Source: Flavisphingopyxis soli (GTDB lineage Bacteria > Pseudomonadota > Alphaproteobacteria > Sphingomonadales > Sphingomonadaceae). Taken from it: a stretch of 64,000 nucleotides of DNA. The notes beneath the pieces were generated by a model. The model worked only from the letters and a program-made list of their open reading frames with translations, had not been told where the DNA came from and did not search any database. The position numbers were made by a program, and so were the translations under genes. Shown here in pieces: positions 14,786 through 16,129 of this stretch (positions within the stretch are counted from its first letter, which is position 1; each line of letters opens with the position of its first letter). The DNA is taken from the NCBI RefSeq assembly GCF_007995095.1, contig NZ_VOPY01000001.1, positions 583,001 to 647,000 of the forward strand. Reading direction: 5' to 3'.

Positions 14786-16129
14786 ATGACCACTCCCGCA
14801 TCCAGCTCGCCGATCGGCTCCGCCGTACACGGCCGCCGCCTCGTCCTGGCGATGCTGCTCGTCGTCTACACCTTCAACTTCCTCGACCGGCAGATCCTCT
14901 CGATCCTTGCCGGCCCGATCCAGGCCGATCTCGGCTTTAGCGATACGCAGATGGGCTTGCTTGGCGGCTCGGCCTTCGCCTTGCTCTACGCGATATTGGG
15001 AATACCCTTCGCACTCGTCGCCGACCGCACCAGCCGCAGCTGGACGATCGCCATCAGCCTCGGCGTGTGGAGCGGCTTTACCGCCCTGTGCGGCTTCGTC
15101 ACCGGATTCTGGCAGATGTTCCTCGCGCGCGTCGGCGTCGGCGTCGGCGAAGCGGGCGGCGTCGCCCCCAGCTATGCCCTGATCGCCGACTATTTCCCGC
15201 CGCAGAGCCGCGCCCGCGCGCTCGCGGTCTATTCGCTCGGCATTCCGCTGGGATCGGCTGCGGGCGTCCTGTTCGGCGCGCGCATCGCCGCCGCGTTCGA
15301 CTGGCGCACCGCGTTCATCGGCCTCGGCCTCGCCGGCCTGATCGTCGCGATCCCGTTCAAGTTCCTCGTCAAGGACCGCGCGCGCCAGTCCCCCCTCCCG
15401 CTTGCGGGAGGGGCCGGGGGTGGGCAGAAGCTGGAAGCAGCGCCTAGTCAGCCCACCCCTAACCCCTCCCGCAGGCGGGAGGGGGACATCATCTCGGTAT
15501 TCGCCACCCTCGCGCGCAAGAAGAGCTTCTGGCTGCTCAGCCTCGGCGCGGGGTCGAGCTCGCTGTGCGGCTATGGCCTCGCCTTCTGGCTGCCCAGCCT
15601 GATGCAGCGCAGCTTCGGGCTCGATCTCGTCGCGACCGGACAGTTCATCGGCGGCATCCTGCTCATCGGCGGCGTCGCGGGCGTGCTGGCCGGCGGCTGG
15701 CTCGGTGACAGGCTCGGCGGCGGCGACCGCGCGATGTACGCGCGCGTCCCCGCGATCGCCTTTGTTATCGCGGTACCGCTGTTCGCCGCCGCCTTCCTGT
15801 CGAGCAGCCCCGCCACCGCCTTCGCCTTCGCCGTCGTGCCACAGGCGCTCGCCTATATCTGGCTCGCCCCCGTCATCACCGCGATCCAGCACCTCGTCCC
15901 CGCGGAACAGCGCGCGACCGCCTCGGCGAGCTTCCTGTTCATCAACAACGCGATCGGCCTCGGCCTCGGCACGCTCGTCCTCGGCGCGTTGAGCGACGCA
16001 ATGACCGCAAGCTACGGCGCAGAGGCGCTCCGCTACGCCATGCTCGCCGCGCTGGGCTTCTACCTCATCGCCGCGCTCCTCATGGCGCTAGGCGCCACAG
16101 CCCTGCGCAAGGACTGGGTCGAGGGCTAG
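14786..16129 (+). CDS. MFS transporter with an in-frame palindromic-repeat insertion
   Basis: 447 residues, twelve predicted transmembrane helices. The N-terminal half has VVYTFNFLDRQILSILAGPI and a motif A-like loop (ADRTSRSW), typical of the spinster/ACS-like MFS subfamily that follows TonB-dependent receptors in sphingomonads. The central cytoplasmic loop, about residues 202-234, is encoded by a duplicated-hairpin repeat (15392-15484) and reads as low-complexity SPLPLAGGAGGGQ...NPSRRREGD. The frame is kept across the insertion, so the protein may still function. Probably an inner-membrane exporter or importer working with the upstream receptor; substrate unknown. Confidence 0.9.
   Translation: MTTPASSSPIGSAVHGRRLVLAMLLVVYTFNFLDRQILSILAGPIQADLGFSDTQMGLLGGSAFALLYAILGIPFALVADRTSRSWTIAISLGVWSGFTALCGFVTGFWQMFLARVGVGVGEAGGVAPSYALIADYFPPQSRARALAVYSLGIPLGSAAGVLFGARIAAAFDWRTAFIGLGLAGLIVAIPFKFLVKDRARQSPLPLAGGAGGGQKLEAAPSQPTPNPSRRREGDIISVFATLARKKSFWLLSLGAGSSSLCGYGLAFWLPSLMQRSFGLDLVATGQFIGGILLIGGVAGVLAGGWLGDRLGGGDRAMYARVPAIAFVIAVPLFAAAFLSSSPATAFAFAVVPQALAYIWLAPVITAIQHLVPAEQRATASASFLFINNAIGLGLGTLVLGALSDAMTASYGAEALRYAMLAALGFYLIAALLMALGATALRKDWVEG
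15392..15484. repeat. Intragenic palindromic repeat element (nested hairpins)
   Basis: Two identical hairpins, CCCCTCCCGC with GCGGGAGGGG, occur at 15392-15413 (loop TT) and 15463-15484 (loop AG). Between them GGGGTGGGC (15417-15425) can pair with GCCCACCCC (15451-15459). The whole unit is a symmetrical mobile-type palindromic element inserted in frame inside the MFS gene, in the inter-domain loop where extra residues are tolerated. Confidence 0.85.

Follow-up and report, generated by a model that had tools for sequence, protein, structure and literature searches.

A short palindromic element in frame within an MFS transporter gene of Flavisphingopyxis soli, and its probable kinship to hairpin-ended elements carrying a DUF559 nuclease gene

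An MFS transporter gene of Flavisphingopyxis soli carries in frame a palindromic element that is probably a MITE-like form, short and non-autonomous, related to a hairpin-ended mobile element. The sole gene of the latter encodes a nuclease of the DUF559 family (PF04480), with the Vsr/EDxHD homing-endonuclease fold. The gene lies in a stretch of 64,000 nucleotides (assembly GCF_007995095.1, contig NZ_VOPY01000001.1, positions 583,001 to 647,000), referred to here as the window. Judged from the loci compared, genes for DUF559 nucleases are widely paired with inverted hairpin arms, a pairing unreported in the searchable open-licence literature; no earlier report linking DUF559 to palindromic arms was found there, subscription papers lying outside the search. 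The link to a nuclease gene was missed by the initial annotation of the window and is the stronger finding.

The palindromic element and its short copies

The element occupies positions 15388-15487 of the window, where it encodes residues 202-234 (SPLPLAGGAGGGQKLEAAPSQPTPNPSRRREGD) of the transporter, and was delimited by its fold, its inverted repeats and its absence from 109 orthologue rows. The left hairpin (CCCCTCCCGC-TT-GCGGGAGGGG, 15392-15413) is followed by the inner tail of the left arm, read from the sequence as GGGGGTGGGC (15416-15425, plus strand), an unpaired core separating both arms (15426-15450), the inner tail of the right arm (15451-15459, minus strand; GCCCACCCC on the plus strand) and the right hairpin (CCCCTCCCGC-AG-GCGGGAGGGG, 15463-15484). 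The initial annotation had described two identical hairpins with a matching central pairing. The 10-nt stems are indeed identical, but the 2-nt loops differ (TT against AG, 91% identity overall); the inner tails do pair, and the larger inverted repeat has 38-nt arms that are 87% complementary with 19 nt between them. The RNA fold of the 100-nt element had an energy of -88.7 kcal/mol (z -9.22), and none of 200 shuffles was as good. With up to three mismatches, the hairpin pattern was found at two places only in the window, two matches being reached in 3 of 100 shuffles, and with up to two mismatches it was found at nine places in the whole genome against none for the reversed control pattern. 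The hairpins, as read from the sequence, are open in every reading frame. The element has the layout of a REP/REPIN, with two hairpin units in inverted orientation flanking a core, as well as that of a MITE, with terminal inverted repeats and no enzyme gene inside, while neither the GTAG nor the CGTC tetranucleotide that tags a hairpin base was read anywhere in 15388-15487.

Short copies were counted with the pattern GGGGTGGGN{12,40}CCCACCCC, which was relied on for this genome only; elsewhere many of its matches were not clearly elements and the reversed control was high in some genomes (93 matches in genome G017, 19 in G028 and 13 in G046). In the F. soli genome (2.59 Mb) the pattern occurred at eight places and its control at none. 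Three of these copies are in open frames, namely the MFS gene, an ORF of 538 aa which reads its element in the same frame (SPLPxAGGAGGG...PTPNPSRxREG), and the beginning of SufS, the true start of which is uncertain. The other five are between genes, one of them between a putative atpD and a putative atpC, as we name these two from their sequences. The genome-wide count thus agrees for the most part with the annotation's remark that such elements are normally intergenic, although a coding location is not unique to the transporter. A palindrome found both between genes and in frame within protein genes is RPE-like in its distribution.

At the sufD-sufS junction (L298:796-845; G000:C1:471396-471444, G000 being the F. 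soli genome) we observed a variant short element that is open in the SufS frame, and at the same spot the congener has a different hairpin repeat, of the GTCATGCTGAAC type. A second short palindromic family, CCCTCATCC...CCTTCTCCCGC, was seen in the genome at L022 (G000:C3:95994) and L023 (G000:C1:972995), and resembles the arms of other DUF559 copies (L143, L177).

DUF559 genes between inverted hairpin arms

A BLAST search of the F. soli genome with the element matched, at 92 and 94%, both arms of a longer element (G000:C2:440016-440497) lying between rimM and a gene which, from its sequence, we take to be rpsP. Arms of the window type, with the same tail GGGGGTGGGC, here enclose a DUF559 gene (Pfam 2e-33, 115 bits against a cut-off of 20.6), at the place corresponding to the core of the window element, and the genome thus contains the larger relative, with the same ends and an enzyme gene, that is looked for in the case of a MITE. 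In the congener G001, rpsP and rimM are adjacent and the element is absent. The genome has six DUF559 copies, and the window arms match those of the rpsP-rimM copy at a score of 56 and those of the other five at 17-19. Among all 99 DUF559 copies compared, the best arm match to the window was a Qipengyuania copy, which in the protein tree is the sister of the rpsP-rimM copy (98% SH-aLRT). These matches point to the rpsP-rimM element as the likely parent form of the window element. As a separate observation, its DUF559 frame is open into RimM (L169:1065-1973; G000:C2:440064-440972), giving a putative fusion protein of 303 aa with both domains, and the rimM start codon of the congener is missing in F. 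soli.

The conserved residues of DUF559 are E23, W27, Q43, D52, E63-x-D65-G and R79, of which E23, E63 and D65 are invariant and D52 is present in at least 90% of 42 rows. Profile searches against solved structures matched 3hrl (NGO0050) at 3.9e-35 and 3r3p (I-Bth0305I) at 8.5e-6. The structural model (pLDDT 88) matched the fold of 3hrl and that of 3r3p (TM 0.66 by query for the latter), then those of PvuRts1I/AbaSI and Vsr. The predicted fold is thus the catalytic fold of I-Bth0305I, which excerpts of PMC3943268 describe as an EDxHD homing endonuclease. DUF559 resembles I-Bth0305I and Vsr in profile and fold but, unlike them, is here a catalytic domain only, placed outside any intron or intein and between inverted hairpin arms. 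PADLOC gave weak matches and nothing stronger. The Caulobacter crescentus DUF559 protein VsrA (CCNA_02930) is responsible for an SOS response in the absence of the ScmA methylase, with double-strand breaks as the proposed cause; neither "palindrom" nor "inverted repeat" appears in that paper (PMC12907096).

DUF559 was found in 44 of 59 relatives and in 27 of 76 genomes sampled from the class, the weakest matches in both counts lying inside other, mostly larger genes. A first test, for inverted repeats in the flanks at E <=1e-3, detected them at 52 of 66 DUF559 copies and at 5 of 440 random intervals (5 of the 71 matches, too short or near a contig end, were omitted). A stricter test at a score of at least 16 returned 74 of 99 copies, leaving 25 below the threshold, against 4 of 271 control genes and none of 62 controls shorter than 700 nt (of 103 domains, three near an end and one duplicate were omitted). 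Ten plasmid loci were opened from 44 records, and seven had a flanking inverted repeat at E <=1e-3 (all three from Deinococcus, two of three from cyanobacteria, one each from Qipengyuania and S. meliloti), while none was found at this threshold in those from Photobacterium, Azospirillum and one cyanobacterium. Armed examples come from Alphaproteobacteria, Deinococcota and Cyanobacteriota. Comparison of these loci showed the association of DUF559 with the arms, and the kinship of the window arms to those of the rpsP-rimM copy is likewise shown. Some DUF559 elements occupy one flanking site across genera (e.g. L146, L150, L154 and L155), and such elements can, by their shared positions, be old residents.

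It could be envisaged that DUF559 genes are homing-like passengers which invaded pre-existing palindromic repeats, themselves spread by something else. Hairpin units do occur singly, as in E. coli, and with no DUF559 inside, the S. meliloti copy L276 has an apparently complete short element on either side (a 110-nt inverted repeat), and the fold of DUF559 is that of a homing endonuclease. We nevertheless consider it unlikely, on two grounds. Within one copy the two arms resemble each other much more closely than do arms taken from different copies, as mis-paired flanks (the left of one copy with the right of another) reached a score of at least 16 in only 76 of 1000 cases, against the 74 of 99 given above. 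Furthermore, arm types, classified by tail motif, track the DUF559 protein tree, with 10 changes over 55 rows against a mean of 29.5 and a minimum of 22 in 300 shuffles, which a random invasion of repeats would not yield. The 55 rows leave out 19 of 74 that were of unclassified type, and over all 74 rows there were 24 changes against a shuffled minimum of 38; the tree has many forks of weak support and includes copies from shared sites, and the label of L160, an apparent chance match of the regular expression, was retained.

Arms often begin just past the stop codon of the upstream gene, and stable hairpins beside genes can act on RNA, and so the hairpins might instead be terminators or attenuators needed by DUF559 genes, recurring for regulation and not mobile. 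This reading is improbable, as it leaves unexplained both the short, nuclease-free copies in frame in the MFS gene and the 538-aa ORF, and the arms common to distant loci of one genome.

Two inverted hairpin units, a core and a linked enzyme gene are also the layout of REPINs and RAYTs (excerpts of PMC3116915), from which the element could be an ordinary REP/REPIN moved by a RAYT (Y1 transposase). There is, however, little room for such a mover. The genome has a single Y1_Tnp match, in an open frame of 137 aa that lacks neighbouring hairpins of this kind, Y1_Tnp is present in 15 of 59 relatives and DUF559 in 44 of 59, and the element has neither the GTAG nor the CGTC tag. When one rule was applied to the same genomes, flanking arms were found at 21 of 24 DUF559 loci, none of 28 ParE loci and none of 14 Y1_Tnp loci, after 6 of 30, 2 of 30 and 7 of 21 loci, respectively, had been dropped by locus size. 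RAYT was thus rejected as the mover, given the armless Y1_Tnp of F. soli and the 0 of 14 in its relatives.

Insertion into the MFS gene

The transporter gene (14786-16129, plus strand, 447 aa; Pfam MFS_1 1.3e-49) was taken from the ORF list and is open throughout, element included. The palindrome reported within it is real, and the absence of a stop in the coding frame was correctly noted in the initial annotation, as was the central loop as insertion site. AlphaFold gave a pLDDT below 50 at residues 201-229, between the helices 173-194 and 246-277, and the segment encoded by the element is predicted to be a disordered loop between the two. The element sequence was present in none of 109 orthologue rows from other genomes (107 distinct sequences; 91 rows of at least 50% identity), and the same loop was not encountered in unrelated genera. 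The segment is thus not ancestral, and the alignment shows a species-specific insertion of the element. The loop measures 66 residues in F. soli and 46 in the congener G001, and thus the 33 codons of the element, in agreement with the roughly 32 added residues annotated, amount to a net gain of only 20, about 13 loop residues having gone from the site. No target duplication is evident at either the MFS gene or rimM, and target bases appear to have been replaced (about 39 nt at the former, some at the latter), the congener being too distant for certainty in either respect.

That the loop is an ancestral low-complexity stretch, palindromic by chance, is scarcely credible even though the loops of family members of at least 50% identity range from 39 to 85 residues, and was rejected since the sequence is absent from the congener and every other row, folds at a z of -9.2 and has full copies elsewhere in the genome. 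The one long loop, in the orthologue L045, is of low complexity, is 85 residues long and stands at the same place; it was considered as a second insertion and ruled out by its lack of a hairpin.

Outside the loop, comparison of 390 codons of the transporter with the congener gave a dN/dS of 0.175. This value indicates past purifying selection on the gene, but neither dates the insertion nor reveals a use for it. The element had been called domesticated; the analysis found no function for the loop, and its presence is compatible with simple tolerance, so that an element tolerated inside the protein is the best reading.

Proposed movement and comparison with known systems

Each arm consists of a hairpin with an asymmetric tail of the GGGGTGGG type, and two such units in inverted orientation form the ends of the element; they enclose the DUF559 gene in the parent form and a core of some tens of bases in the window form. 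Under the DUF559 reading, which we infer from the sequences, the mover would be the nuclease and its manner of moving would be as follows. The nuclease would recognise the hairpin units, whether extruded as cruciforms or folded from a single strand, and would nick or cut the element ends and the target, after which repair would join a copy into the break with a small loss of target and no obvious duplication of it. One such copy landed in the MFS gene; as its hairpins contain no stop in any frame and the reading frame was preserved, the transporter would have survived, lengthened by a disordered loop. To our knowledge, no single-domain nuclease is known to suffice for transposition. The broader proposition, which we hold to be evenly balanced, is that DUF559 nucleases characterise a separate class of bacterial mobile elements, in which a single PD-(D/E)XK/EDxHD-type nuclease would lie between inverted hairpin-plus-tail arms in at least three phyla. 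Its short, MITE-like derivatives would explain many untagged CCCTCTCCC-type palindromic repeats and supply proteins with new in-frame segments.

No insertion polymorphism within a species was seen at the few sites checked in E. coli and S. meliloti. At one S. meliloti short-element site a hairpin-like sequence was present in all three other records aligned, and a second site looked fixed among the S. meliloti rows listed. In E. coli, 3361 of 5426 genomes matched the DUF559 gene ycjD (sapF-fabI) and its flanks at a query coverage of at least 80%, and a related hairpin unit is found downstream of this gene. Three other E. coli genomes that were opened had efflux genes beside sapF and no clean empty site. 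The repeat units of this species also occur solitarily and at low copy, at no more than seven places per genome. We also observed that ycjD is absent beside sapF in some strains, and that a hairpin-plus-tail unit, GGTCCCCTCGCCCCTCTGGGGAGAGGGTTAGGGTGAGGGG (L305, L308, L310, L311, L314), has a few copies near fabI, tkt, pstA and zntA.

Genes that neighbour each other on one Deinococcus plasmid have a DUF559 element between them on a second one. Two such plasmids (L267, L268) were seen to have DUF559 elements at different junctions of what is apparently the same hpa gene cluster, and on a Pseudanabaena plasmid (L272) an annotated gene of 4866 nt contains, in frame, a DUF559 element whose arms are 41 nt long.

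The element and its DUF559 partner resemble REPINs and RAYTs in their two inverted hairpin units, short core and repeat-linked enzyme gene, and in that enzyme clade and repeat type go together. In contrast, DUF559 is a PD-(D/E)XK/EDxHD-type nuclease and not an HUH transposase, the element has no GTAG tag, and RAYT-type genes are rarer in these genomes and have none of these arms. By description, an analogy may be drawn with the Rickettsia palindromic elements, which are of about 100-150 nt, palindromic, intergenic as well as in frame, and give tolerated peptides (PMC2229807); excerpts of that source name no enzyme partner for them, whereas one is proposed here, and the hairpins of the present element are GC-rich with a tail. 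The GTAG/CGTC-tagged REPs likewise consist of short hairpins located at gene ends, in some cases in frame within genes and in sphingomonads too, and CGTC REPs are stated by the source to lack a dedicated enzyme (PMC3733652); the element carries neither tag. In-frame elements had been annotated as rarely noted in sphingomonads, which is in part incorrect, as intragenic GTAG/CGTC REPs, albeit of a different repeat family, are listed for S. alaskensis and E. litoralis in the same source.

Palindromic repeats with no RAYT have had no dedicated enzyme, and the bond between DUF559 and the arms offers a concrete and testable candidate for their mover, while DUF559, in Pfam still a domain of unknown function, gains a candidate role. 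Such elements lengthen proteins, as in the transporter loop, the 538-aa ORF and the open frame joining DUF559 to RimM. If true, the proposal would provide a nuclease-based counterpart of the RAYT/REPIN system.
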